A stretch of 64,000 nt of DNA, taken from assembly GCA_937936785.1 (NCBI GenBank), contig CALDDQ010000005.1:62001-126000 (forward strand), written 5' to 3'. Each line of letters starts with the position of its first letter. The first letter of the stretch is position 1. The translations under genes were made by a program, and so were the position numbers. The DNA is from an uncultured Endomicrobiia bacterium (GTDB lineage Bacteria > Elusimicrobiota > Endomicrobiia > DTEH01). Under the pieces are notes generated by a model. The model saw only the letters and a list, made by a program, of their open reading frames with translations, was not told the origin of the DNA and searched no databases. Positions 12,266 to 27,846 of the stretch are shown here, piece after piece.

Positions 12266-14551
12266 TTATTTGCTGAAAAACTGTTGTACAAGCGGTTGAA
12301 GTTTTTGCCAACGTGTCTCAGAATAAAAATTTTTTTCTAAAAAAAAGTTGTATGGTATTTGATGCGGTTTATTTGCTTCTTCTTCTGACATAATCTCATA
12401 AACATAATTATAATTATGAGGTTCAGAAGAATAATTTTTCCACCAGTCTGGAACTTGTTTTTTCATTGAATAAATTTTTTGTTGTGGAAATGAAATGTCT
12501 GGAATATCTCTATAAATTTCTTTTACATACTTGTTCCAAAATTTACTAAATATAATTAAATCTTCTCCTTCCCAATGTATTATATCACCAACACGTTTCG
12601 CTTCATTAGGATTCAAAAAAATGTGTGTCACACCTTCATTTTTTAACCTTTGATATAAATCTTTTTCATCTTTTGATTCGCCAGACCAAATTACTAATGG
12701 TACCCAGTTCGATAAATCGTACATTATTATCTTACGTTCTATGTAATAATTTCTTAACTCTCCCATCATACTAATTAAAGATTCCTTAGGTAGGTTTTTA
12801 TTAATCCAATCTGCAACACCATAATATGGCGTTGGATATGTTGGTCGTATTGTATTTAAGTAATTCTCTCTCGTGTCTAAATTTAATACCACTGCTAAAC
12901 AATTATTCACATATTTTTGCATATTAGTTACAAAAAAGATATTACCTGTGATTATTACTGTAAAAACTAATAAAATAATTTTTTTTATTCCTGCATCAAA
13001 CTTCGTCTCAAATATATAAACAGCACTTAAAAAACTTATTATTGGTAACACAGGGAAAAAATATCTAAAGTATAACTTATGCAAAAAAGACCATATAATC
13101 CAGTATATCAGGATGTATATAAATAAATATTTTGTGGGTTCCCATTTCGATTTAAAAAATAAAAATAATGGTATACATAGCAAAATTGTTATACCTAAAA
13201 ATGCTTCTTCATGTTGTCCCATAGATACTGTCCAAGGAGATTTTAAAATGTTTATAAAATCGTTTTTCCATTCGGATAAATTATAAATCCGTATTGCAGG
13301 ATCAGAATCTACAACTCGTGGTTTTATAAAACCTATATGTTTCGCAAAATATGGATATACAGGATTTCCTGTGTGATAAAAATTATAAACCAACCAAGGT
13401 GATGCAACTAAAAATGTTATAAAAATATATTTAATACTGTGTTTTACAATTTGTTTAATACCTTTTTTTTCTAATAAAAAATATAGAAAAATAATTATCA
13501 AAACAGATAACAAACAATATAATGTTGTATACTTTGTCCCGACACCTAACCCACAATTTATCGCAGAAAGTAATAACCATTTATCATTTTTTTCTTTTAT
13601 CCATAACAAAAATGAAAATATGGTTATTGTCTCAAAAAATGATAAAAACATTTCCATACCACTTCTATAAGACAAAATACCAAAGTATGGCACTGTAAAA
13701 AATAATACCGCAGCAAATAAACCTACTCTATGATTAAAAAATTTTCGTCCCATTGCATATGTGGTCAATGCTGCAAATATTCCAAAAATAAAATGTATCG
13801 ATTTGCATACTGTTTCGTTCAAAAATGATAGTCCTAAAGCATAGATAATATTTCCATTCCCAGGATAAAATCCTGTAATAACTTTTGTTTTGTCTGGAAC
13901 AATTTTTCCACTGTTTAACCAAAAGTTTGGTTTTGCTAGATGGTATACTAAAGAATCATAAAATATTTCTGGAGATAAACAACCTATTAAAATTATAAAA
14001 CTTAAAAATAAAATTAATAAAATCCAAAGTTTTTCTATACCATAAAACTTTATTTTTCCTGATTCTATAAACTCTCTCTTTTCACCTGTTATAAACAAAT
14101 CGTACACACCTAAAAAACTTAATACTATAACAACCCCAACTAAAATATTTTTATAAAATAATCCTGCAATACCAAAAATGTATGACGCTATTATCAAAAA
14201 CAAAAATCCTAGCGATACCGAAAAAATTATTTTCTCTAATAAACTTATTTTAGGAAATTTTAACCATAAAAAAATTTTTTTGCCTATACTATATGCTGCA
14301 AAAAATATTAGCATTGCAAAAAATGGTGAAATGAGATTTTTTATAAAACTTAAAATGTTTCCAAGACCAACTTCTTCTCCAAACTCTTCTAAAGAAAAAT
14401 ATTGTTCTAAAATAAAAATGTTAATATTATTGACACTATAATAATTACTTATTACTAAATAAAACCAAATAATAATACCTATAATAAAAACAAACATAGG
14501 AATTCTTAGAACAAACATATCTTGCAAAATTTCATTTTTTTTCTTTGACAT
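12266..14551 (-). CDS. GT-C membrane glycosyltransferase (ArnT/PMT-like)
   Basis: A 761-residue protein with about a dozen hydrophobic helices and a C-terminal soluble region. The segment SPEIFYDSLVYHLAKPNFW near residue 205 carries the acidic residue after an early helix pair that is typical of lipid-phosphate-sugar-dependent GT39/ArnT-like enzymes. It is followed by HRVGLFAAVLFFTVPYFG. Such enzymes move a sugar from a polyprenyl-phosphate donor to a lipid or protein on the outer face of the inner membrane. A DPM1-like synthase in the same locus (28179-29333) could make the donor. The acceptor is unknown. Confidence 0.82.
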   Translation of the reverse strand: MSKKKNEILQDMFVLRIPMFVFIIGIIIWFYLVISNYYSVNNINIFILEQYFSLEEFGEEVGLGNILSFIKNLISPFFAMLIFFAAYSIGKKIFLWLKFPKISLLEKIIFSVSLGFLFLIIASYIFGIAGLFYKNILVGVVIVLSFLGVYDLFITGEKREFIESGKIKFYGIEKLWILLILFLSFIILIGCLSPEIFYDSLVYHLAKPNFWLNSGKIVPDKTKVITGFYPGNGNIIYALGLSFLNETVCKSIHFIFGIFAALTTYAMGRKFFNHRVGLFAAVLFFTVPYFGILSYRSGMEMFLSFFETITIFSFLLWIKEKNDKWLLLSAINCGLGVGTKYTTLYCLLSVLIIIFLYFLLEKKGIKQIVKHSIKYIFITFLVASPWLVYNFYHTGNPVYPYFAKHIGFIKPRVVDSDPAIRIYNLSEWKNDFINILKSPWTVSMGQHEEAFLGITILLCIPLFLFFKSKWEPTKYLFIYILIYWIIWSFLHKLYFRYFFPVLPIISFLSAVYIFETKFDAGIKKIILLVFTVIITGNIFFVTNMQKYVNNCLAVVLNLDTRENYLNTIRPTYPTPYYGVADWINKNLPKESLISMMGELRNYYIERKIIMYDLSNWVPLVIWSGESKDEKDLYQRLKNEGVTHIFLNPNEAKRVGDIIHWEGEDLIIFSKFWNKYVKEIYRDIPDISFPQQKIYSMKKQVPDWWKNYSSEPHNYNYVYEIMSEEEANKPHQIPYNFFLEKNFYSETRWQKLQPLVQQFFSK

Positions 14552-14563
14552 CGTATTTTTCCC

Positions 14564-15595
14564 TTATTGTAAATTCAACATAATATCTGCTATTTTTTTT
14601 ATAACTACTTGTTGATCAAACAACTTAACTGCTTTCTTACGAGCATTTAGTCCAAGACGTTTAATTTCTGAAGGATTTTGTAACAAATAATTTGTTTTTT
14701 CTTTTAACATACTATAATCTTGTGCTTCTACAAATATACCATCTTCATTATTTATAACATAATCTTCTGTCCCTACAAACCTTGTAACTATAACTGCTTT
14801 ACCCATAGACATACTCTGTGTAAGTACTGTTTGACCACAATCAAAATTTATCTTTTTAAATGGTAAAACAACAAATCTTGCTCCTTGAACAAGTTCTATA
14901 TATTTTTCTTTATTTATTTCAACTAAATATTCTATGTTCTTAACTTTATCAATCTCAGGTTTTAACAATAAATAATCTTTCTTACTACCTATTATTATTA
15001 TTTTAGTTTTTATTTCTTTTGCAAGATTTATTAAAATATCAAAATCACGACCAACTCGTCCTACACTTATGATATAATCTTTATCATTTTTACCACTAAA
15101 ATAAAGTTCTGTATCTACCATTAATGGTATAAATATACAATCATTATTAAATTTTATTTTTTCTTTCCAAAAAGTTACTGTATTTCTGGCATAACACAAA
15201 ATTATTTCTACTGATGAAAAAATAAAGTTGACCATTTTACATAAAAGTTTTCCCGACTTGTTAAAAAATCGTATCGTTGCAACATCTATCATTAAATGTT
15301 TAGGTTTAATAAATTTCTTGCCTAAAATACTTTGTAAAAATGCTATAGTTAGTCCTCCAACAGTGGATGTGGTTATTACAAAATCATAATTGTTAATTTT
15401 AAAAATTATATTTAATGTTTGTAAAAATGCAGGAAATATTTTTTTAAAATCGGACCCATCTCTCGGAAGTTTAAATATGTGAATATTAGTTAAAAAAAAT
15501 TCATTTAAACCATTCCACGGTTTTGTTTCTATTAAGTTGTCATAATTAGATTTACACAATATTAACAATAAAGAAGGTTTTTTGTTAATTTTCAT
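14564..15595 (-). CDS. GT4-family glycosyltransferase
   Basis: A 343-residue GT-B glycosyltransferase. The C-terminal half shows DYIISVGRVGRDFDIL, the nucleotide-binding ARFVVLPFK region, and QTVLTQSMSMGKAVIVT followed by the EDGIFVEAQD-type segment expected of GT4 enzymes. The N-terminal half is more divergent. It probably adds one sugar to a lipid-linked glycan on the cytoplasmic side. Its ATG overlaps the stop of the SDR gene by 4 nt (ATGA), so the two are translationally coupled. Confidence 0.83.
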   Translation of the reverse strand: MKINKKPSLLLILCKSNYDNLIETKPWNGLNEFFLTNIHIFKLPRDGSDFKKIFPAFLQTLNIIFKINNYDFVITTSTVGGLTIAFLQSILGKKFIKPKHLMIDVATIRFFNKSGKLLCKMVNFIFSSVEIILCYARNTVTFWKEKIKFNNDCIFIPLMVDTELYFSGKNDKDYIISVGRVGRDFDILINLAKEIKTKIIIIGSKKDYLLLKPEIDKVKNIEYLVEINKEKYIELVQGARFVVLPFKKINFDCGQTVLTQSMSMGKAVIVTRFVGTEDYVINNEDGIFVEAQDYSMLKEKTNYLLQNPSEIKRLGLNARKKAVKLFDQQVVIKKIADIMLNLQ

Positions 15596-16425
15596 TCTTT
15601 TAAATATTCATATAAAGCTGATTGCCATGGTTGTAAAATGTTAAGTCCTATTTTTTCAAGATTATAGTTTTCCATAGCTTCAGAACACGGCCGTGGTGCA
15701 ACTAATTTAAATTTATCTGAACCTACAGGATTAATTTTTATTTTTTTATTTAATATTTTTACAATCTCTATTGCAATATCGTACCTACTAACTAATCCAG
15801 GATTTACAACATTAAACGTTCCAGTATAATTTTTATCCAACAATATCTTTACACATTTTAACAAATCTTTCGCATATGTTATACTCCCAAACTTATCATT
15901 CACCACATCAATTTCTGTTTTTTTGTTAATTATATCCAAAATTTTTCCGACAAACTTTTTATCTTTATCCTTACCACCAACCATCCATCCTGCACGCAAA
16001 ATTAAATATTTTTTTGTAATTTTTTTTATCCATTCTTCACCCTCTAACTTGCTTTTACCATAAATATTTATAGGTACCATAACATCAGTTTCTTTATATG
16101 TACGAACTTCTTGTCCACCATATACAGCTCCTGAACTAATATATACAATAAATATTCCAAATTTTTCGCAAATTAAAGCTAAATTTTTTGTTGATTCAGT
16201 ATTTACTAAAAAAGCATCCCGACTATCTTGTTCACATCTATCAACATCTGTTTGTGCAGCTAAATGTAAAATTATGTTCGGTTTCATATGTTGAACAATT
16301 TCTAAAACAGAATCTTGTTTTGTTATATCTAGAGTATCTATATCTGTTAAAAACAACTTTTCTTCATTAAACACTTTCTTTACATAACTACCAACAACAC
16401 CATTCGCACCAGTAACTAAAATCAC
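15592..16425 (-). CDS. RmlD-like SDR (dTDP-4-dehydrorhamnose reductase family)
   Basis: A 277-residue extended SDR. The NAD(P) motif VTGANGVVGS is at residues 4-13, LHLAAQTDVDRCE around 52-64, and the catalytic YGKSK near 128-132 with the upstream ISSGAVYGG. This is the RmlD subgroup, which reduces dTDP-4-keto-sugars; no rmlA, rmlB or rmlC gene is in the window, so dTDP-rhamnose is not proven. The start is a GTG with GGAGG six bases upstream. It lies between a B12-radical SAM gene and a GT4 gene in the glycan locus. Confidence 0.82.
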   Translation of the reverse strand: MILVTGANGVVGSYVKKVFNEEKLFLTDIDTLDITKQDSVLEIVQHMKPNIILHLAAQTDVDRCEQDSRDAFLVNTESTKNLALICEKFGIFIVYISSGAVYGGQEVRTYKETDVMVPINIYGKSKLEGEEWIKKITKKYLILRAGWMVGGKDKDKKFVGKILDIINKKTEIDVVNDKFGSITYAKDLLKCVKILLDKNYTGTFNVVNPGLVSRYDIAIEIVKILNKKIKINPVGSDKFKLVAPRPCSEAMENYNLEKIGLNILQPWQSALYEYLKE

Positions 16426-16437
16426 GATTTTCCTCCA

Positions 16438-17844
16438 TTAAGAACTACTTTTTCTTACAATTAAATGTCCTAACTCTCGGATAAGTTTTATCTTAAAAAA
16501 TTTTTTTATTATCCACAATGTAAACTTATTCTTTCTTACCACATAATAAATTATTTTATTTAACAAAATTTTTGTCCTGCTAAGTCCTTGATTATTTATT
16601 TCGTCAGATATTTTTAATAAAAAGTTATAATCAATACCTTTTATTTTATTTCTTCTATATGGATCTCGTCTATAATCATTATGAGATTTTATATCTAACA
16701 AATTTTTTTCTATACAATAATTAAACAACTCGCTCCCAGGAGATGGTGTATAAAATGAACATCCTTGAACTTCTGGTTTAATCTTTTTCATCATGTTAAT
16801 AGTATCCATCATTTCTTCTTTTGTTTCTGTTGGAATACCTAACATATAATTACCCTGAATTTTTATTCCTAAATTGTGACAAATCTCCGCTGCCATCAAA
16901 TTTTGTTCTACAGTAGTGCGTTTATGTAAAAAATCTAAAACTCGTTGGTTTCCACTTTCAAACCCTATTATTATTCCAACAAGTCCTGCCTGTTTCATCT
17001 TTGATATTAGATCAGGCCGTTTACAAATTATATCTGCTCTACCCTGACATATAAATTCTTGATTAAACCCTTCTTCTTTATATTTTATTAAAAATTCTTC
17101 TACCCAAGTTGGATTTTCTATTAAACAGTCATCGTGAAACATAAATGATTTAAATTTATATTTATCTCTCAAAAGTTTCAGTTCTTCAATAACATTTTTT
17201 ACACTACGACGACGAACACGACGACCAAAAATCATTCTTTCTGCTGGCTGACAAAAACTACAATTATATATACACCCTCTCCCAGCAATTATTGTCACGA
17301 AAGGTTTTTTGTCAGTTAACCACCAGGGCTGTTCTTCAACTTCAAAAAGATCCCTATCAGAAAATGGTAAATTATCAAGTTCTGCTGGTTTGCCTAAAAT
17401 TATTTTTTCTTTTGGAAAAACATTATTTTCTATACTATCCAATAATTCTAAAAAACTAATTTCACCTTCACCTTTTACAACATAATCTATATTATCATTT
17501 TTTGCACATTCTTCTGGCATTATTGATGGATGTGGACCTCCAACTACAGTTATAATGTTTTTACTAACCTCTTTTACACAAGATAAACTTTTTATTGCAG
17601 GGTCATAATCTACACTAACCATTGTAACACCAACAACATGCGGGTTTTCTTTTCTTATAATTTTTTTAAACTCTTTCCAACCAGATATTTTTCTCAAATC
17701 TACAAGTTTTACTTCATATCCTTTAAGTTTTGCACATGCACTAATTGAACATAAACCATGATTTATCCAAGACCCTTCTGCTCCAATACCTAAACTGTTA
17801 AATCCTAAACTTGTTATCCCTGGATATACCAAAATTATTTTCAT
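16438..17844 (-). CDS. B12-binding radical SAM protein (paralogue 1)
   Basis: A 468-residue protein. The N-terminal cobalamin-binding Rossmann domain (about 1-150) has VVGGPHPSIMPEE near 100-112 and a KGEGE turn; the DxHxxG base-off motif is not evident. The radical SAM domain has CxxxCxxC at C191, C195 and C198, then an R-RRRSVKNVIEEL segment. Relatives methylate or rearrange unreactive carbons in lipids, glycans and antibiotics. It is one of four such genes interleaved with glycosyltransferases between 16.4 and 27.9 kb. The substrate is unknown. Confidence 0.88.
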   Translation of the reverse strand: MKIILVYPGITSLGFNSLGIGAEGSWINHGLCSISACAKLKGYEVKLVDLRKISGWKEFKKIIRKENPHVVGVTMVSVDYDPAIKSLSCVKEVSKNIITVVGGPHPSIMPEECAKNDNIDYVVKGEGEISFLELLDSIENNVFPKEKIILGKPAELDNLPFSDRDLFEVEEQPWWLTDKKPFVTIIAGRGCIYNCSFCQPAERMIFGRRVRRRSVKNVIEELKLLRDKYKFKSFMFHDDCLIENPTWVEEFLIKYKEEGFNQEFICQGRADIICKRPDLISKMKQAGLVGIIIGFESGNQRVLDFLHKRTTVEQNLMAAEICHNLGIKIQGNYMLGIPTETKEEMMDTINMMKKIKPEVQGCSFYTPSPGSELFNYCIEKNLLDIKSHNDYRRDPYRRNKIKGIDYNFLLKISDEINNQGLSRTKILLNKIIYYVVRKNKFTLWIIKKFFKIKLIRELGHLIVRKSSS

Positions 17845-17854
17845 AAATTTTTTT

Positions 17855-18796
17855 TCACTTAACTTTTTTTAAAACCCATGATTCTAACATAAAAAATCCA
17901 CCAAACAAAACTGTTACACATGTAGCTAAAAAATGCATGCTTAACACCACACTTAATCCAAGATCTTTTCTAACATCAAATATACTTAACACATTTAATG
18001 CAACAAAATCCCATATTCCCCAAAAACCTGGTGTTGATGGTATAGCAGTAACAAATGATGGAACAACAATAAATGATAAAATTCCAATTATAGAAAGTTC
18101 TATACCAAAACCTTTTAAAAACAAATAAACTTGTAAATAAGAACATAACCACATAATTATAGTTATAAAAATAATCTTAAAGAATAGTTTTAGTGAAAAA
18201 AAATTTTTTATTGCTTCATTAATCAAAATCACTTTGTTACTAACATAACTTGATTTATTACAAATAAAACTTATAATTTTTCTATGAAAAACTATCCATA
18301 AAATAATTATTAAAAAAATTAAAAATAAAAAAACCCAAATTTTTTCCATAATAGTTTTAGGAATTATAATGTAAAAAGAAACAAAAATAAATATCACTAC
18401 TATAAAAAAAATGTCTATTAACTGATACAACATCACTGATGATAATACTACTGTTTTGGAAATATTTTCCTTTGTACTTAGATAGAAAATCTGAAACATA
18501 TCACCTGCACGAAACGGTATAACTGCAGAAGTAAACTGCGAAATGCTTAAAACTTCTAACAAATTTTTAAAAGGAATATTTTTTTTGTACGTAAGAATTT
18601 TTTGCCAGCGAAAAATTTTTATTAAAAAAACAAGTATACCAAACATAACAGATATCACCAAAAATAACCAGTTAACTGATAAAAAATTATTTTTAACTTC
18701 TATGAAATTCACATTGCGAAATAATAAATAAACGAAAATAATTAATATACTTAAACTAATAGAAATTCTTAAATAATTATTAAGATGATTTTTCAT
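17855..18796 (-). CDS. Lysylphosphatidylglycerol-synthase-TM / UPF0104 membrane protein
   Basis: A 313-residue hydrophobic protein with about seven to eight membrane helices. It shows the family marks FRWQKIL near residue 62, AVIPFRAGDMFQIFYLS near 93-109 and FVTAIPSTPGFWGIWDF near 250-266. Homologues next to polysaccharide genes are thought to act as flippases or lipid-handling accessories (AglD/MprF transmembrane type). It is tightly packed between two B12-radical SAM genes; its start overlaps the preceding gene's end by 4 nt. The exact cargo cannot be inferred. Confidence 0.8.
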   Translation of the reverse strand: MKNHLNNYLRISISLSILIIFVYLLFRNVNFIEVKNNFLSVNWLFLVISVMFGILVFLIKIFRWQKILTYKKNIPFKNLLEVLSISQFTSAVIPFRAGDMFQIFYLSTKENISKTVVLSSVMLYQLIDIFFIVVIFIFVSFYIIIPKTIMEKIWVFLFLIFLIIILWIVFHRKIISFICNKSSYVSNKVILINEAIKNFFSLKLFFKIIFITIIMWLCSYLQVYLFLKGFGIELSIIGILSFIVVPSFVTAIPSTPGFWGIWDFVALNVLSIFDVRKDLGLSVVLSMHFLATCVTVLFGGFFMLESWVLKKVK

Positions 18797-20295
18797 TTCG
18801 CTATTTTAAACAAAATTCTTTTTATAAAAACTAAACTATACTTTATATCTTGATTAACTATTGTCCTAAAAAAAATTTTCAACTGTCTTAATATCCAAAA
18901 CAAATTCATACATTTATCAATCAACCATTTTTTAAATACGTTTTTATAAAATAGTTCTATCTCTTTATTTGACAAATTTATATAACTAACTACACATTTA
19001 CAACTACCATCATAGTTTAACCAATCAAAATCTTTCAACTCTTTGTTATTTAACACCCTATTATAAAACCTTGTCCCCGGATATGGGGTTGCTATACTAA
19101 ATTGAACACTGTCAATATCTAAACTTTTTGCAAAAGTTAATGTTTGTTTCATACTATTCTTTGTCTCTCCAATAAGTCCAAAGGTAAATGTTGCATGCGT
19201 TCTTATTCCATTTTTTGAACAAAATTTTACTACATTTTTTATTTTGTTGATATTTACAGGTTTACCTATTTCTTTTAAAACATTTTTTTCCACACTTTCA
19301 ACTCCAAACTTTATACCTATACATCCTGACTTTGCCATTCTAAAAATTAATTCTTCATCTAAATTTATCGCATCACACATACAACTCCATTTTATTTTTA
19401 ATTTTCGTCTTATTATTTCTTCACATATTTCTCTAACACGATTTTTGTTAATTGTAAAATCGTCATCATCTATATAAATTTCTTTTGCATCAAATTTTTT
19501 TATAATATACTCTATTTCGTTAACAACATATTTTACACTAAAAGTTCTATATTTACTCTCTTTATATAAAACTTGATTCCATAAACAAAAATAACACCTA
19601 TAAGGACATCCTCTTGAAGTATGTATCTGCACTGCAGGACGTAATTGACAAAAAACATCCCAATAAACTTCTACGCTCGGTCTTTCATTCCAGGGAAAAA
19701 TTTCTCTGTATGGCATAGGCAAATTGTCTAAAGTTTCTATCAAATCAGTATGTTCAATTGTTTTATCTAAACTTTTAGACAAATCTATTACTCCTTTTAT
19801 ATTAACTTCTCTTCCTGCTACTATTTCATTTAACAAATTTAATACTGCAAACTCATATTCACCATTAATACAATAATCAAAACCCTGATTTTCTTTAATA
19901 TATTCTACTAACAACGAAACAAATGGTCCTACTGCTATAACTCTTGTTTGTATATTTTTTTCTTTTATTTTCTTTGCAATTAAAATATCATTTTTTATAG
20001 AAAACGGTGCAATTTCTATAATTACAAAATCATACACTTTTGACAAAACCATATCTAAAAAATTTTTTTCATTAAACTGTAATGCAACACCATCTATAAC
20101 TTCTACTTTATACCCTTCTTTATATAACAATGCCGCAGTATAACCTAAAAAAAATGGAAATGGTCTATATATTGACGGTTCATTAATTTTTTTATATTCA
20201 GAATACGGCCATCTACTCCCAGATCTAACAAAAAATCGTTCATACCCATTAGATTCTTTTATTCTATATGGCGGATTTAATAACAAAACTTTCAT
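18793..20295 (-). CDS. B12-binding radical SAM protein (paralogue 2)
   Basis: A 500-residue protein. The cobalamin-binding-like domain covers about residues 1-165, but the usual GGPH turn reads VGPFVSLL, so it has diverged from paralogues 1 and 3. The radical SAM cluster motif is at C230, C234 and C237 (TSRGCPYRCYFC), with the later GIKFGVESVEKNVL typical of the class. The C-terminal 100 residues are basic and rich in aromatic residues, perhaps membrane-associated. It overlaps the flippase-like gene by 4 nt and follows the frameshifted methyltransferase by 1 nt. Confidence 0.87.
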   Translation of the reverse strand: MKVLLLNPPYRIKESNGYERFFVRSGSRWPYSEYKKINEPSIYRPFPFFLGYTAALLYKEGYKVEVIDGVALQFNEKNFLDMVLSKVYDFVIIEIAPFSIKNDILIAKKIKEKNIQTRVIAVGPFVSLLVEYIKENQGFDYCINGEYEFAVLNLLNEIVAGREVNIKGVIDLSKSLDKTIEHTDLIETLDNLPMPYREIFPWNERPSVEVYWDVFCQLRPAVQIHTSRGCPYRCYFCLWNQVLYKESKYRTFSVKYVVNEIEYIIKKFDAKEIYIDDDDFTINKNRVREICEEIIRRKLKIKWSCMCDAINLDEELIFRMAKSGCIGIKFGVESVEKNVLKEIGKPVNINKIKNVVKFCSKNGIRTHATFTFGLIGETKNSMKQTLTFAKSLDIDSVQFSIATPYPGTRFYNRVLNNKELKDFDWLNYDGSCKCVVSYINLSNKEIELFYKNVFKKWLIDKCMNLFWILRQLKIFFRTIVNQDIKYSLVFIKRILFKIAK

Positions 20296-20296
20296 A

Positions 20297-20897
20297 CTAT
20301 TTTTTACAACTTTCTAAAATAAATTCTATTTCTCCAAAACCACCAACATAATAACACCATAATCTTTCTGCAAAATCTATATTCAAATTTGCTAAATGCG
20401 AAATAATTGAATTAAAAAAATTTATAATTATTTGTCCTTTGTTTTTGCCATGTTTAGGTTCTGGTGGAGACCAAATAAATCTTTTTTTTAATATTTTAAA
20501 TTCCACATTTGTTTTTGCAACAGTTTCTATGTTTGATTTTGTAAAATAATCAAACCAATAAGAAGAAAAAAAATGTTTATGTTCAGGACTAAAATATGCC
20601 ATTCTACTACTAAAATGTGGCACTTTAATAATTAATTTTCCATTCGGTTTTAAAATTTTGTAAAATTCTTCCATAACTTTAATTGGTCGTTCTAAATGTT
20701 CTAAACAATGTGAACAATATATAATATCAAAACTATTTTCCTCTAATGGCCATGGAAATCTGTTTAAATCCCAAACTATGTCTGGTTTAACTTTTTCATT
20801 CCAATCTATGCTAATAACTACCCCCCCCCCGCCACCGCAAAGATAAAAATTTCCACGGACCAGAACCTACATCAAGAATTTTTAAATTTTCATTCAT
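20297..20897 (-). pseudogene. Class I SAM methyltransferase, frameshifted at a C10 tract
   Basis: From the ATG at 20897 the frame reads KILDVGSGPWKFLSL, an intact SAM motif I, then hits TAG just after a run of ten G (C10 on the plus strand). The rest (VVISIDWNEK, FDIIYCSHCLEHLE, then the segment from 20674 to the stop at 20297) is in another frame. Losing one base, or gaining two, would restore a protein of about 199 residues of the type found in polysaccharide loci. The indel could equally be in the neighbouring T-run. Either it is switched off, phase-variable, or a sequencing error. The downstream piece alone (125 residues) lacks the SAM site. Confidence 0.85.
20821..20830. repeat. C10 homopolymer tract inside methyltransferase gene
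   Basis: Ten consecutive C in sequence where C runs rarely exceed five. It lies next to a GC-rich patch (GCCACCGCAAAG). Tracts of this kind change length by slipped-strand mispairing. The present length puts the methyltransferase out of frame. Confidence 0.95.
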
Positions 20898-20927
20898 AGA
20901 ATTTCCCCTTTTACAAAACTTTTTATT

Positions 20928-22526
20928 TTATAAAATCATTAGATTTTTTTTTACTATTGCACCAATGTTATCCCATAAGAAAAATTTCTTTAACTCATTT
21001 CTTACATCCAAAGTTTTTTTTAAATTTTTGTATTCTAGTATCGTTCTAACAATTTTGTCTTTAAAATCTTCTTTTGTAACATCACTACAAATACAATATT
21101 TTTCAAAATCATCTTTCGTTTGACCAACTAAATGCCCTACAACTATTTTGTTCATTGCTAAATATTCACCAACTTTTAAAGATGTCTTCATCTTATTTTT
21201 TATATTATTTCTCATATATATCAATGCTATGTCTATACAACTTAAATACTTTGGCACTTCTTGATGTTTTATTAGTCCAGTAAAATAAATATTTTTCATT
21301 TTAATTTTCTTGCTCAAAGATACATACTCTTCAAACAATGGTCCTCCACCTATAACTAAAAAATCCACATCTACAACTTCTATAACATCTTTTACAACAT
21401 CAAAAATAAAATCTAAATCTCCTACACCACCAGTCGTAAACGATGCCAAAAAACCTAATACTATTCTGTCTTTTCTAATATTTAATTCAAATCGTACTCT
21501 TTCCTCGTCATATTTTCCTGGGTCAAAAATTTCAAAATCTATCCCATGGGGCACAAAATAAATCTTCTTTATTCCAATTTTTTCCCCATATTCCATAAGA
21601 TATTTATTAGGGACAAAAATAATATCAACAAATTTTATAAATATATGCTCACAAAATTTTACCATCATTGCACGAAACCTATTTTTTTGTAATACCCAGG
21701 ACAAATCATCCCAATCAACTACAACTTTTTTACCTTTAAATTTTGCTATTAAAATACTTCCTACTGTTAATGGTGTTATTGTTTGAGTAAATAAAATATC
21801 AAATTTTGTTATTAAAGTTATTAAAACCCTTTTTACACTACCAAACAAAAAACCTAAAAAATTATTTTTTTGTTTTATGTTTATTGCATTTTTTATATCT
21901 GTATTAGACTCAATATATTTCGTTTCAAAATTTGTATCGTCTTTAATAAAACCATATAACTTTCTTATCCTATGTGTTGAACCATATGTACTATCTAATG
22001 AATTTATTACTAAAACTTTTTGTTTTTCTGACAAATTATCTTCAATAAATTTTCTAATGGTTTTGATAATATTCTTTTTTCCTTCATTATTAACTAAAGA
22101 TTTTTGTTTCTTTATTTTTAAAGCTTTATTTAAAGTTTCTTTTAATAAAGACACATTATAAACAACAAATATTTCCTTATCATTTTCTTGCAAATGTCTC
22201 GCAATATCAAGCTGATGATCATCAACATGTTCTTTATACTTTTTCAACCTCGGGACTATAATTGTAACAATCCCATATTGTTTTGCCTGAACAATAGTCC
22301 CAGTCCCTGCATGAGAAATTATTATGCTAGCATTTCTTATATAATAATCTGATTCTTCAAAAGTACAATATTGTAATGATTTTACATTCTTTGACATAAA
22401 ATTATAATTTGTAATTCCTTGTTGAACAATAAAAGTTTCTTGTTTAAATTCCTGTGCAATAACATCAATTTGTGATATTAATCTATAAAAAGGAATTTTT
22501 GAACCGCCAATAGTTACATAAATCAT
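20928..22526 (-). CDS. Fusion: Alg13-like (PssE) domain plus GT4 glycosyltransferase
   Basis: A 532-residue protein. Residues 1-160 match the Alg13/PssE-type GT28 C-terminal domain: VTIGGSKIPF at the start, then IRNASIIISHAGTGTIVQAKQYG and HVDDHQLDIA, the nucleotide-sugar-binding part. From about 170 there is a GT4 enzyme, with VDWDDLSWV, VPHGIDFEIFDPGKYDEERV and LVIGGGPLFEEY. The Alg14/PssD partner is the next gene upstream and overlaps by 4 nt. The Alg13/Alg14 pair normally adds the second sugar to a lipid-linked acceptor, and the GT4 half would add the third. I see no frameshift joining the halves. Confidence 0.85.
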   Translation of the reverse strand: MIYVTIGGSKIPFYRLISQIDVIAQEFKQETFIVQQGITNYNFMSKNVKSLQYCTFEESDYYIRNASIIISHAGTGTIVQAKQYGIVTIIVPRLKKYKEHVDDHQLDIARHLQENDKEIFVVYNVSLLKETLNKALKIKKQKSLVNNEGKKNIIKTIRKFIEDNLSEKQKVLVINSLDSTYGSTHRIRKLYGFIKDDTNFETKYIESNTDIKNAINIKQKNNFLGFLFGSVKRVLITLITKFDILFTQTITPLTVGSILIAKFKGKKVVVDWDDLSWVLQKNRFRAMMVKFCEHIFIKFVDIIFVPNKYLMEYGEKIGIKKIYFVPHGIDFEIFDPGKYDEERVRFELNIRKDRIVLGFLASFTTGGVGDLDFIFDVVKDVIEVVDVDFLVIGGGPLFEEYVSLSKKIKMKNIYFTGLIKHQEVPKYLSCIDIALIYMRNNIKNKMKTSLKVGEYLAMNKIVVGHLVGQTKDDFEKYCICSDVTKEDFKDKIVRTILEYKNLKKTLDVRNELKKFFLWDNIGAIVKKNLMIL

Positions 22527-22993
22527 GCAAGAGAACCTACATATTTAGCCTTTTTACCATATTTATTTGTTAAACTTTTCCACTGAACTAAAAACAAATC
22601 GGTTATAGGATAAATTATTTTTCCTGTTATTGAAGGTGTATTAACTCGGGCATATATTTCTAAAAAAACAAGTTTTGAACCAAAAAATATTTTTGACAAA
22701 TAAAAAAATGGTATTGCAAGTTCTGCACCAGTAGAAATTACAACTCGTGGTTTTTCTTTTAACAAAATTGTTACAATGTTTATAAAATTGATAAATATTA
22801 TAGCCATATTACTAAAAGTCCATTTCAATGCATATGTATTATAAAAAATATCGAACGAATTAAAATCATTATTTATACCTTCATATGTTACAAGAAATTT
22901 AGGATATTCTTTAACAGAATCTACTATCTGCAAAAGTTCCGTAAGATGTCCTCCACCTGAACATACAAAACATATATTAAACTTTTTTTTCAT
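22523..22993 (-). CDS. Alg14/PssD-like glycosyltransferase membrane subunit
   Basis: A 156-residue protein with the glycine-rich CSGGGHLTELL near residues 10-20, a hydrophobic stretch near 60-80 that can anchor it, and PRVVISTGAELAIPFFYLSK followed by YARV, all typical of Alg14, PssD and Cps14F. The subunit recruits the Alg13/PssE catalytic domain to the membrane and binds the lipid acceptor. That partner is encoded next, as the N-terminal half of the fusion protein, with a 4-nt overlap. Confidence 0.88.
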   Translation of the reverse strand: MKKKFNICFVCSGGGHLTELLQIVDSVKEYPKFLVTYEGINNDFNSFDIFYNTYALKWTFSNMAIIFINFINIVTILLKEKPRVVISTGAELAIPFFYLSKIFFGSKLVFLEIYARVNTPSITGKIIYPITDLFLVQWKSLTNKYGKKAKYVGSLA

Positions 22994-22997
22994 AAAT

Positions 22998-24329
22998 TTA
23001 TTTCAATAACCTCAAAAATCTTAACATATCCCACCTAAACTCTAACATCTTTTTTGTTATCATCCTAAAATTTAAATAACTTTTTCTATATGCTTTTTTA
23101 TACATCTTTTCTACTAAATCTTTTTTTACTTCTCCTAATTCAAAATATGCTTTCCCTGAATATGACCCTAATTCTGACCATTTGGTAAATAAAAATTTAC
23201 CCTCTTTTTTTACTGTATCATATAAACGCGTACCAGGATATGGTACTGCTACTGTGAATTGCACAAAATCTAAATCTAAACTTTTAGCAAAATTTATCGT
23301 TTCATTCATTGTTTGTTCGTTCTCACCATAATTGCCTATCATAAAAAAACCTGTTACTTTCATCCCAACTTCTTTTGCCCATTTGACAGCTTGTTTAACT
23401 TTCTCTTTAGTAATTTTTTTATCTACCAACTCCAAAATTCTGTCTGAACCAGATTCTATCCCAAAAGCAATTCGCCAATAACCTGCCTGTTTCATCTTTG
23501 CTAACATTTCTTTGTCAATAGTATCAACCCTACTTGAACCTTCCCAGTAAATAACCATTTTCTCTTTTATCAACCTATCACAAAATTCAATAACCCTTTT
23601 TTTATTCACAGTAAAAGAATCGTCAACTATACCAATTTCATCTGCACCAAGATTTAAAATTTCCTCCCATTCTTGTAACATATTATCTACACTACGCATT
23701 CTATAAATTCTACCTGAAATTCCTTTATAACAAAAATTACAGTTGTTTGGACAACCACGACTTGTTAACATTGTCATAACCTTTTTTCCTTTGTGTAAGT
23801 ATAACTTATATTTTTCAATAGGGAAAAGTTTTCTTTTTGGAAATGGGATCAAATCTAAATTAGTTATGTATTCTCTATCAGGATTATGAAATATTTTATT
23901 ATTTTTAACATAACTTATTCCTTTAATATTTTCTATACTCTCTTTGCCTTCGACTACTTCAACTATAGTATTTTCTGCCTCTCCTCTACACACAATGTCT
24001 ACAAAACCACTACTTAAACTTTCTTCAGGAAATACTGAAGGATGTGGTCCACCTAATATTACTAGTTTATCATATCTTTTTGCAATTTTAGCAATTGATA
24101 TTGCTTGTTCTATATTCGGTGTTAAAGCTGAGATACCTATTATATCATTATCTTTAATTTTATCTTCTAAAACTTTATTATCTTCTACTTGTAAGTCTAA
24201 ACAACTAACATAATGACCATTTTTTGTAAGCATCGCTGATAAATAACCTAAACCTAACGGCATTATTTTACCATTTGCAAGTGTGTATGCTACATTTGAT
24301 GGATTTATAAATAAAACTTTTTTTGACAT
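22998..24329 (-). CDS. B12-binding radical SAM protein (paralogue 3)
   Basis: A 443-residue protein. The cobalamin-binding domain has ILGGPHPSVFPEE near 91-103 and a CRGEAE turn. The radical SAM motif is at C193, C197 and C200 (SRGCPNNCNFC), followed by YRMRSVDNMLQEW and IAFGIESGSDRIL. It is the most canonical of the four paralogues and ends soon after the core, without a large extra C-terminal domain. It lies four nt after the SPASM radical SAM gene and four nt before the Alg14 gene. Confidence 0.88.
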   Translation of the reverse strand: MSKKVLFINPSNVAYTLANGKIMPLGLGYLSAMLTKNGHYVSCLDLQVEDNKVLEDKIKDNDIIGISALTPNIEQAISIAKIAKRYDKLVILGGPHPSVFPEESLSSGFVDIVCRGEAENTIVEVVEGKESIENIKGISYVKNNKIFHNPDREYITNLDLIPFPKRKLFPIEKYKLYLHKGKKVMTMLTSRGCPNNCNFCYKGISGRIYRMRSVDNMLQEWEEILNLGADEIGIVDDSFTVNKKRVIEFCDRLIKEKMVIYWEGSSRVDTIDKEMLAKMKQAGYWRIAFGIESGSDRILELVDKKITKEKVKQAVKWAKEVGMKVTGFFMIGNYGENEQTMNETINFAKSLDLDFVQFTVAVPYPGTRLYDTVKKEGKFLFTKWSELGSYSGKAYFELGEVKKDLVEKMYKKAYRKSYLNFRMITKKMLEFRWDMLRFLRLLK

Positions 24330-24333
24330 TTTA

Positions 24334-25434
24334 TTATTTTTTAAATTTTAATGTTTCTTTAAAATAATTTGGAAATGTAAAAACTGAGTTAGTAATTGTA
24401 TTAAAATCCATTGGTAAACAATTTTTACAATCTGAATTTCTTTTATAATTATCTAAACTTTTACATAATATTCTCATATCTACTATTTTTTTACTATTCC
24501 AGATATCTTTAAACTCACAATCAAACACATTTCCAAATGTATTGTCCTTTCTAGGATATATTGCACAACAAGGTGACGTTTCCCCGCTTATGGAAATAAA
24601 CATACTTAACCATGGTAATAAACATACCCGTCTTTTAATCGTTAAACTTTTGTTTGTAGAATATAAATTTTCTATTACAAAATATTTTTTAATTAAAGTC
24701 TCAAGATTAGTTTTTATTCCATATTTTTGGGCAACTTTTTCTGCTTCTTGAATTATTCTTTTTAATTTCTCTATTTCAATATCCGAAATAATTTCATTTT
24801 TCTTTTTTTCATCATATCCTCGTATATCTATTGGATGAAAATAAATATGGTTAACATTATATTTTTTTGCAAATTCTATATAATCTAAGATTTCTTTATA
24901 ATTATATTTCATTATAACAAAATCAAATCTTATCTGTAAAACATTTTGTTGTAAATTTTTATTAATTTCAGTTATTAAACTTAAATTTTTTGTTAATATC
25001 TCATAATTTTTACCACGAATTTTTTCATAAGTTTCTTTCCTTGCTCCATCAATAGAAACTTTTAAAATGTTTAAACCACTATAGGGTATCTGTCGAACAA
25101 TTTTTTCTGATAAGATGAGATTTGAAGATATTATGGTAGTAATTTTTTTTTCTGAAGCATATTTTAACATATCAAATATCTGCGGATTTAAAAATGGTTC
25201 ACCATTGGCAGCAAGATTTATAGATCTTGGTCTTATTTTATCTACTATAATTTTAAATTTTTCAAATGTTAGATGTTTATTGTTTTCCGAAGAAGAAATT
25301 ATTTTTTTTGAGTTACACATCTTACAACTTAAGTTACACATCGTTGTAACATCTATTTGTATATGCAACGGATATTGTTTAACAATATTCGGCAAAAATA
25401 ATATAGTTTTTATTGTTTCAAGATAATTTATCAT
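24334..25434 (-). CDS. Radical SAM protein with SPASM-like C-terminal domain
   Basis: A 366-residue protein. The radical SAM motif CxxxCxxC is at C33, C37 and C40 (TTMCNLSCKMC), followed by SINLAANGEPFLNPQIFDML. The C-terminus has the SPASM-type cysteines, with CCAIYPRKDNTFGN and a final CKNC pair. There is no cobalamin domain. Related enzymes modify peptides or act as sugar and lipid oxidoreductases in polysaccharide loci. No small precursor-peptide gene was seen beside it, so a glycan or lipid substrate seems more likely. The 4-nt overlap with the upstream GT2 gene indicates coupling. Confidence 0.85.
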   Translation of the reverse strand: MINYLETIKTILFLPNIVKQYPLHIQIDVTTMCNLSCKMCNSKKIISSSENNKHLTFEKFKIIVDKIRPRSINLAANGEPFLNPQIFDMLKYASEKKITTIISSNLILSEKIVRQIPYSGLNILKVSIDGARKETYEKIRGKNYEILTKNLSLITEINKNLQQNVLQIRFDFVIMKYNYKEILDYIEFAKKYNVNHIYFHPIDIRGYDEKKKNEIISDIEIEKLKRIIQEAEKVAQKYGIKTNLETLIKKYFVIENLYSTNKSLTIKRRVCLLPWLSMFISISGETSPCCAIYPRKDNTFGNVFDCEFKDIWNSKKIVDMRILCKSLDNYKRNSDCKNCLPMDFNTITNSVFTFPNYFKETLKFKK

Positions 25435-26405
25435 TTACTAAAACCTTTAAATCTTATCACTCCAAACAAAAAACCTATGTTCCAACAAATCATTGTTACA
25501 AAAAATAATACTAAAAACCTTAACCATTCAACAATATTTTTTGTCCTAAACATAGCATATAAAATAACAACATTTAATATTAACAAAAAAAGTCCAAAAC
25601 TAAACTTAAAAGAAATTATTATTGACCAACAAAAAATTGTCACTAAAGGAAAAAATATTATTGGCACAAAATGTATTTTTCTAAAAAAACTATGTATGCG
25701 AACTAATATTCCTTGTGCAACACCATATCTAAACATCATTTTTATAAACTTTATCATATTGTCAACTCTATAATGATACACCACTGCATTTGGATTAAAA
25801 ACTAGCTTATATCCTGATTTAATTATTCTATAATCGAGTTCTACATCTTCCCCAGGCCATAAGCCTTCTCGAAAACCTTTCATTTGAACAAAAATTTCTT
25901 TCTTATACATAACATTGCATGATGGATTATGTTGTGTAAAATTTATTTCTTGTTTATTATTTTTCACATAATCTACCATACCAATTGAATGCATAAAATC
26001 ATTTATTATTTTCCCAAATTCAGTTTCATCTTCGGGACTAAGTTGATCACCACCAACCCCAACCACACTTTTTAACTGTTTCTCTTTAAACCCACTTAAT
26101 AATTCATCTAACCAATTTTTTGATACTATACAATCAGCATCAGTAAATGCAACATATTCTCCTCTTGATTGTTCCACAGCAAGATTTCTCGCTTTAGAAG
26201 GGCCTACCACTTTAGTTTCTATAATTTTAATTCTATCCTTATAATCTAATAAAATTTTTCCTGTATTGTCTGTTGAACCATCATTTACAACTATAATTTC
26301 ATAATTTGAATAATTTAAAGACAATATACTATCTAAACATTTTCTGATAAAATTTTCACCGTTATGAACTGTAATAATTACTGTAATCAGTGGTTTATGT
26401 TCCAT
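25431..26405 (-). CDS. GT2-family glycosyltransferase with C-terminal membrane helices
   Basis: About 324 residues from the ATG at 26405; the longer frame starts at TTG 26420. The GT-A domain shows ITVIITVHNGENFI, IVVNDGSTDNTG, FTDADC with the metal-binding DxD-type motif, and a GEDVELDYRI segment. Two or three hydrophobic helices follow residue 230, as in chain-elongating or membrane-attached GT2 enzymes. It is flanked by a SPASM and a B12-binding radical SAM gene with overlapping ends, so it belongs to their transcription unit. The sugar is not predictable. Confidence 0.85.
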   Translation of the reverse strand: MEHKPLITVIITVHNGENFIRKCLDSILSLNYSNYEIIVVNDGSTDNTGKILLDYKDRIKIIETKVVGPSKARNLAVEQSRGEYVAFTDADCIVSKNWLDELLSGFKEKQLKSVVGVGGDQLSPEDETEFGKIINDFMHSIGMVDYVKNNKQEINFTQHNPSCNVMYKKEIFVQMKGFREGLWPGEDVELDYRIIKSGYKLVFNPNAVVYHYRVDNMIKFIKMMFRYGVAQGILVRIHSFFRKIHFVPIIFFPLVTIFCWSIIISFKFSFGLFLLILNVVILYAMFRTKNIVEWLRFLVLFFVTMICWNIGFLFGVIRFKGFSK

Positions 26406-27846
26406 TTTTTTTCTCAACAAGGTACAGAATAAAATTTATTGCACCACGAATTTTTCTATATAAATCAGAAATATTCCTACTTTTAAACAAGAATCTTAAC
26501 ATATATCCTAACCTAAAATAAAATTTTTTTAAACCTAAATCTACATAATAGTTAATTTTTTCTAAACTTATCGTAGGATACTCAACGACACCTTTCTGTT
26601 CACCATCATCTAACCATTTAGACCAATCTTTTGTTTTCAACCACTTGTTGTGATCACATTCAATAAAAAATTTTGTCCCCGGGAATGGTACCGCACCAGA
26701 AAATTGTATCGTATCAACACCAAGTTTTAACGCAAAATCTATTGTTTCTTTAGCCGAAACTTCTGTTTCTCCAGGAAGACCTATAACAAAACACCCATGA
26801 ACTTCTAACCTATTTTCTTTTGCAAGTTTTACAAAATTCAATGATTGTTCTAAAGTAATATTTTTGTTCATTTTATTTAAAACTTCTTGATTGCCAGACT
26901 CAAACCCTACAAGAAGTTCTCTGCACCCTGCTCTTTTCATAATTTTAAACATCTCATCATCGGCAGTATCTACCCTTGCATTTACAGAAAATGTTATGTT
27001 CAAATTACGTCTTAGAATTTCTTCACATATTAAAATTGCTCGTTCTTTGTTAACAGTAAAAGTATCATCTTCAAAAAAAAATTCTCCCCCTTTCAAAACT
27101 TTTGGACATAATTTTATATCATACTCAATTTCATCAACAACATTTTTTGCACTACGGAACCTGTATCTCATACCATGCATAACCTGTGGCCATAAACAAA
27201 ATATACATCTATTTGGACATCCACGACCTGAAATTATATCAATATATGGATATAATTTTCCTCCATCAAAATATTTCATTAAATCTAAATGTTGCCAGGC
27301 AGGAAACGGTAGCTCATCAAGGTTTGATATTAATTCTCGTGGTGCAGTTTTTATCACTTTTTTATTACCATCCAAATAACAAATTCCTTTCACTATAGAA
27401 AGATTATTGTAATTTAAAATTACATCTCTAATAGTATAATCATACTCACCAATACAACCAACATCCACAGAACCTGAAGAATTTAATATTGTTTCCTCTG
27501 GCAAAGCAGAAATATGTGGTCCTACCATTATTATTTTCGCGTTAGAGTTTTCTTTTATAATTTTTGCACATTCTATGTCAGAAAAAATTGATGGTGTAGT
27601 TGAATCTAATACCACAAAATCAGGACTTTCATTGGAAATTATATTCTTAAGGTCTTTTTTATCCCAATTCATTGCAGGAAAATCATATAATTTCACCTCT
27701 GCACCCGGAATGTCTTTTTCTAAAACAGCAGTTGCATATGCTAACCAATCAGGTGCACGTAAAACTCTACCACGAGTACGTGCTGCCCAACGTTGTGTCC
27801 TACAAAAACCTGTAACAAAAGGTTCGTTAATTAGAATTATTTTCAT
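26395..27846 (-). CDS. B12-binding radical SAM protein (paralogue 4)
   Basis: A 483-residue protein. The cobalamin-binding domain shows IIMVGPHISALPEE near 105-118 and CIGEYDY. The radical SAM motif is at C210, C214 and C217 (SGRGCPNRCIFC), followed by FRFRSAKNVVDEI and LLVGFESGNQEVL. The early RTQRWAARTRGRVLRAPDWL is basic, and this segment distinguishes it from the other three. It overlaps the ArsR-type regulator by 20 nt, so the regulator and this enzyme are probably translated from one message. Confidence 0.87.
   Translation of the reverse strand: MKIILINEPFVTGFCRTQRWAARTRGRVLRAPDWLAYATAVLEKDIPGAEVKLYDFPAMNWDKKDLKNIISNESPDFVVLDSTTPSIFSDIECAKIIKENSNAKIIMVGPHISALPEETILNSSGSVDVGCIGEYDYTIRDVILNYNNLSIVKGICYLDGNKKVIKTAPRELISNLDELPFPAWQHLDLMKYFDGGKLYPYIDIISGRGCPNRCIFCLWPQVMHGMRYRFRSAKNVVDEIEYDIKLCPKVLKGGEFFFEDDTFTVNKERAILICEEILRRNLNITFSVNARVDTADDEMFKIMKRAGCRELLVGFESGNQEVLNKMNKNITLEQSLNFVKLAKENRLEVHGCFVIGLPGETEVSAKETIDFALKLGVDTIQFSGAVPFPGTKFFIECDHNKWLKTKDWSKWLDDGEQKGVVEYPTISLEKINYYVDLGLKKFYFRLGYMLRFLFKSRNISDLYRKIRGAINFILYLVEKKNGT

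Follow-up and report, generated by a model that had tools for sequence, protein, structure and literature searches.

Slipped-strand mispairing in poly-G tracts, with expression that depends on the reading frame, is an established mechanism of phase variation, described chiefly in host-adapted Campylobacterota and in Neisseria. In Campylobacter, for which G/C tracts of at least 7 bases have been counted, lengths of 9 and 10 are the commonest, and tracts of at least 8 have been shown to switch genes (PMC6321876). We analyzed a methyltransferase gene in a 64-kb stretch of DNA (hereafter the window) from an uncultured Endomicrobia bacterium, a gene that shares several features with these Campylobacter contingency genes: a coding-strand G tract of 9-10 bases in an AT-rich genome, a likely role in modifying a surface glycan, and ON/OFF expression that is here predicted to depend on frame. 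The window genome differs from Campylobacter in belonging to another phylum, in having one tract as against 5-81 phase-variable genes per strain and in carrying mutS, and switching of its gene is a candidate read from sequence alone (PMC6321876). Unlike phase-variable restriction-modification genes, such as the type IIG gene of Campylobacter jejuni (PMC4889913), the window gene is of the small-molecule or glycan type and does not encode a DNA methyltransferase.

An initial annotation had called a run of ten C in the window exceptional, and the genome agrees. The run lies at exactly 20821-20830 and is the sole C/G run of at least 8 bases in the 1,557,867 bases (1.56 Mb; 25 contigs, 95.9% complete) of the window genome, which otherwise holds 16 runs of length 6, three of length 7 and none of length 8 or 9. 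A first-order Markov model trained on the window predicts about 0.1 C10 tracts per genome; because this model yields roughly fourfold too many C/G runs of at least 6, the adjusted expectation is about 0.03 per genome. A chance origin of the tract is unlikely, though not impossible. Its length falls in the hypermutable range for G/C tracts, 7-8 bases or more, and beyond what chance would give (thresholds from PMC6321876). Among other simple repeats in the 64-kb window, with units of 2-8 nt, none reaches 14 bases. Missing mismatch repair was ruled out as an explanation, as a 913-aa open frame in the genome matches MutS_I; with mutS present, slippage may be slow and its rate perhaps modest.

Table 1. 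Features of the methyltransferase gene and its neighborhood (positions within the 64-kb window)
Feature	Position	Strand	Basis
Homopolymer tract, C10 on + strand and G10 on coding strand; proposed slippage switch	20821..20830	-	
SAM-dependent methyltransferase gene (Methyltransf_11/23), frame broken at tract, ~199 aa if read through	20297..20897	-	
5' fragment translated at assembled length, 28 aa, ending just past motif I	20811..20897	-	
3' remnant ORF from internal ATG, 125 aa, without SAM-binding motif	20297..20674	-	
T5 run (coding strand), alternative location of one-base lesion	20845..20849	-	
~19-nt G-rich insertion relative to homologues (coding strand CGGTGGC-G10-TA), boundaries approximate	20819..20837	-	
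AAGGGG, likely ribosome-binding site of methyltransferase gene	20905..20910	-	sequence inspection
PMT-type membrane glycosyltransferase	12266..14551	-	
Glycosyltransferase group 1	14564..15595	-	
RmlD-like dTDP-4-dehydrorhamnose reductase, NCBIfam score slightly under cut-off	15592..16425	-	
B12-binding radical SAM protein	16438..17844	-	
LPG_synthase_TM-type membrane protein	17855..18796	-	
B12-binding radical SAM protein, begins 1 nt past methyltransferase stop	18793..20295	-	
Fused PssE-like + group 1 glycosyltransferase, upstream neighbor	20928..22526	-	
Alg14/PssD-like glycosyltransferase subunit	22523..22993	-	
B12-binding radical SAM protein	22998..24329	-	
Glycosyltransferase family 2	25431..26420	-	

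The methyltransferase gene starts at the ATG at 20897, with AAGGGG ahead of it, and the tract occupies nucleotides 68-77 of the gene. In the frame of the start codon it encodes MNENLKILDVGSGPWK, which carries motif I, and then runs into the tract; a second frame continues as ISIDWNEKVKPDIVWDLNRFPWPLEENSFDIIYCSHCLEHL to the stop at 20297. Two predictions of the initial annotation concerned this arrangement and both held when we translated tract lengths from 7 to 13. The assembled G10 yields 28 aa that end just after motif I, and the loss of one base (G9) gives a single open frame of 199 aa in which the rest of the gene is conserved. Only lengths 9 and 12 leave the frame open, G12 giving 200 aa; G11 gives 26 aa, so that G10 and G11 alike end translation within four codons of the tract. 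As in contingency genes, the tract lies inside the open reading frame, its length sets the frame and the gene is otherwise intact. Between the last upstream stop and ISIDW, the body frame contains no ATG, GTG or TTG, so that by itself it could not encode an enzyme carrying motif I.

Pfam assigns the segments in both frames to a class I SAM methyltransferase, and the read-through protein matches Methyltransf_23 (3.7e-12) and Methyltransf_11 (3.8e-12). Its AlphaFold2 model (mean pLDDT 79) finds methyltransferase folds as its best PDB matches. Pfam domain, motif I and Rossmann-like fold together are those of a class I SAM-dependent methyltransferase.

The position of the lesion within the gene is less certain. 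As the initial annotation had cautioned, a one-base indel in the neighboring T5 run would also restore the frame, and it joins the two frames equally well, so that the lesion is not assignable to the tract from sequence alone; codon usage leans weakly toward the tract, by 2.4 nats, on scores whose correct-frame and wrong-frame values overlap too heavily to separate the two sites. A related concern is that a genuine tract was called at the wrong length and is in truth in frame, or that the T5 run was miscalled, either of which would mean an intact gene. No positions are harder to call than long G/C runs, and here one base decides the frame. Against such a consensus error, 192 A/T runs of 7-9 bases lie inside intact ORFs of the window, which implies that ordinary homopolymer errors are rare here, a comparison that includes no second long G/C run. 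We think a miscall rather improbable. The 56 other ORFs of the 64-kb window, closely packed on one strand, show no sign of a second frameshift.

The tract sits within a G-rich insertion that sets the window gene apart from its relatives. The codon spacing from GPWK to ISIDW is 34 nt in the window gene as against 12-15 nt in homologues, and six or seven loop residues of the window protein are missing from all seven aligned homologues. In the AlphaFold2 model the insertion falls in the loop that links strands 1 and 2 (predicted at 5-10 and 25-31), where added residues should be tolerated. The insertion could itself be an artefact of sequencing or assembly, absent from the genome: by inspection, removing 19 nt leaves the frame open with the loop length of the homologue in G003, a genome of the same family, and noise-like poly-G runs occur at contig ends of some relatives. 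In one of these, G044, 13 of 53 tracts are in the first 100 bp of a contig, where 0.6% would be expected, and the sequence resembles poly-G read tails. The window tract, however, lies at 82.8 kb in a contig of 132 kb and is flanked on both sides by proper coding sequence, and poly-G read tails should not get bridged inside an assembly. We accordingly hold an artefactual insertion to be quite improbable.

Intact homologues share 58% (G003, in a syntenic position), 52% (G004), 51% (a paralogue in G001) and 45% (G049) identity with the window protein, and no viral relatives were found. In its Pfam matches, motif I and the WCYYVGGFGE C-terminus common to homologues, the protein is like Methyltransf_11/23 methyltransferases of polysaccharide loci; it differs in its Gly/Arg-rich loop insertion, which is in no homologue. 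Two further explanations were weighed. In the first, a dispensable methyltransferase was inactivated by a G-rich insertion or by gain or loss of one base in the tract or the T5 run, and the homopolymer is incidental. The tract's occurrence once in the genome and in no homologue, together with the presence of mutS, would fit an ordinary pseudogene. So would the orthologous copy in G001 (L006, G001:C2:42392-42892), which has an independent stop codon, one in-frame TGA, in an otherwise intact gene without a tract; the gene can thus be lost in ordinary ways. A pseudogene would be expected to carry at least two disabling lesions or to show weakened conservation, whereas here there is a single frame break and the body is 58% identical to an intact homologue. 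Moreover, a tract of such length at such a place is rare by chance, and similar tracts recur in similar genes of the class, as described below. A young pseudogene is possible; overall we judge pseudogenization unlikely, while giving it more weight than any other alternative. In the second, transcriptional slippage or ribosomal frameshifting at G10 would give some full-length enzyme in every cell. Long homopolymers can in principle act as slippery sites, but no homologue has such a site and the tract is not conserved, and we regard recoding as very improbable.

The gene lies, as first annotated, amid glycosyltransferase and B12-binding radical SAM genes. The radical SAM gene that directly follows it has a homologue next to the methyltransferase in G001 and G003 as well, and a homologue of the PMT-type gene comes after the methyltransferase in G001, which indicates that the locus is conserved. 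The surrounding glycosyltransferase, RmlD and PMT genes place the methyltransferase among genes for surface structures and glycan modification, the kinds on which contingency tracts act. Because the operon encodes glycosyltransferases, an RmlD-like reductase, several B12 radical SAM proteins and a PMT-type transferase, the substrate is most likely a sugar or a lipid-linked glycan. With the next gene only 1 nt past the methyltransferase stop, the OFF state may also reduce translation of that gene. The locus has an unusual density of B12-binding radical SAM proteins, the three of Table 1 and a fourth at 26395-27846; for the three of them scanned against NCBIfam, the nearest models are of HpnJ type, with scores far under cut-off.

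The initial annotation had suggested comparing the tract among related genomes, which were available as one genome per species, and the outcome depends on the scale of comparison: similar tracts occur in similar genes across the class Endomicrobia, whereas no homologue of this particular gene has one. A G/C run of at least 9 is present in 75 of the 100 genomes searched (the window genome counted) and in none of the four other genomes of the window family (G001-G004), one of which, G004, has an in-frame G8 run in the apparent motif I of a methyltransferase gene. Genes with poly-G tracts in the class encode FkbM and other methyltransferases, glycosyltransferases, sugar epimerases, type I restriction specificity (S) subunits and a D12 DNA methyltransferase, and several are out of frame. 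Tracts also occur in genes read as DnaJ, PilT, YidC and LarC, and the enrichment in contingency-type genes is impressionistic rather than statistical.

The finished, single-contig genome G019 (~1.6 Mb) has eleven tracts, six of them in genes. These are an FkbM methyltransferase gene, which is out of frame, a GT2 gene, an NAD-dependent epimerase gene, a gene whose product reads as sugar-nucleotidyltransferase-like but has no Pfam match, and a pair of genes for mutually related proteins, likewise unmatched in Pfam, of which one is out of frame. The FkbM orthologues in G029 (74% identity) and G065 (59%) are intact, 297 aa long and without a tract, the same picture as for the window methyltransferase. 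For the epimerase, sister genomes offered no close orthologue for comparison of the tract (best 28% identity). Tracts of this genome (L110, L111, L113, L116 and L117) fall in clustered glycan genes at 421-426 kb and 1486-1490 kb and, at 730-737 kb, in the two genes for related proteins. Three others (L107, L109 and L114) are apparently non-coding and have mutually similar flanks; they may represent copies of a regulatory region whose spacer varies.

In G020, tracts of 17, 14 and 9 bases (L074, L076 and L068) break two type I S subunit genes and a D12 DNA methyltransferase gene. These match phase-variable restriction-modification genes such as that of C. jejuni (PMC4889913) and are candidate phasevarions. 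A G33 run in the same genome (L069) looks noisy and was given little weight. G044 has tracts in genes for a DegT aminotransferase, UDP-glucose dehydrogenase, a sulfatase-fold membrane enzyme, GT2, GT61 and two methyltransferases, one of these out of frame; its contig-end tracts were left out of the argument. G062 has an out-of-frame FkbM methyltransferase gene with a tract, and a tract locus of G094 without a Pfam match looks, by eye, like a methyltransferase. G017, with many tracts in non-coding or decayed sequence, was not counted as support. Poly-G/C runs concentrate at contig starts in G044 and G089, where they look like sequencing noise or breaks from length heterogeneity.

We favor the reading that the window methyltransferase is a slipped-strand, translational contingency gene caught in its OFF state, with a probability of about 0.52. 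Slipped-strand mispairing at replication would lengthen or shorten the G10 tract, which lies early in the gene. Tract lengths divisible by three would allow synthesis of the full enzyme of ~199 residues, whose target is probably a sugar or some other component of the surface glycan or lipid that the operon makes; other lengths would stop translation just after SAM-binding motif I and leave no active enzyme, and the assembled sequence would represent such an OFF length. The data establish the tract, the break in the frame, the enzyme family, the glycan context, the placement of the insertion in a loop and the comparable tracts in comparable genes of the class; high-rate change of tract length, the substrate and any benefit are inferred. 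The reading rests on the coincidence of the genome's sole C/G run of at least 8 with the window's only apparent frame break, on both wrong phases stopping within four codons of the tract, on a gene body that is intact and 58% identical to its syntenic homologue, and on an insertion in a loop where length change should be tolerated. It also rests on the length of the tract, which fits Campylobacter, where 9 and 10 are commonest (PMC6321876), and on the recurrence of tracts in similar genes across the class (G019, G020, G044, G062 and G094). Counted against it are that this is the only long tract in the window genome, with none elsewhere in its family, that mutS is present, that the T5 run is a possible lesion site and that the G001 orthologue has a stop codon without a tract. 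The proposal of phase variation made in the initial annotation is supported in part and is the best available reading: it gains from the anatomy of the gene, its glycan setting and the class-wide tracts, and loses from the solitary tract in the family, its absence from homologues and the presence of mutS.

At the level of the class, we see about an even chance that poly-G slippage serves Endomicrobia (Elusimicrobiota) generally as a means of phase-varying surface glycans and restriction-modification, with the window gene a single, perhaps recent locus in a family otherwise devoid of them. The mechanism is already known, and its occurrence in this lineage is apparently new. The initial annotation had noted no report for the lineage, and as far as the open-access literature goes this stands: we found there no relevant report joining Endomicrobia or Elusimicrobia with phase variation or slipped-strand mispairing, subscription journals lying mostly outside this scope. 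The class includes a cultured and sequenced member, Endomicrobium proavitum (PMC4505116). If the class-wide reading is true, some apparent pseudogenes in Endomicrobia genomes would be explained, the system would span free-living and protist-associated gut members of the class, and uncultured gut and protist-associated bacteria would diversify their surface and DNA methylation by poly-G phase variation.
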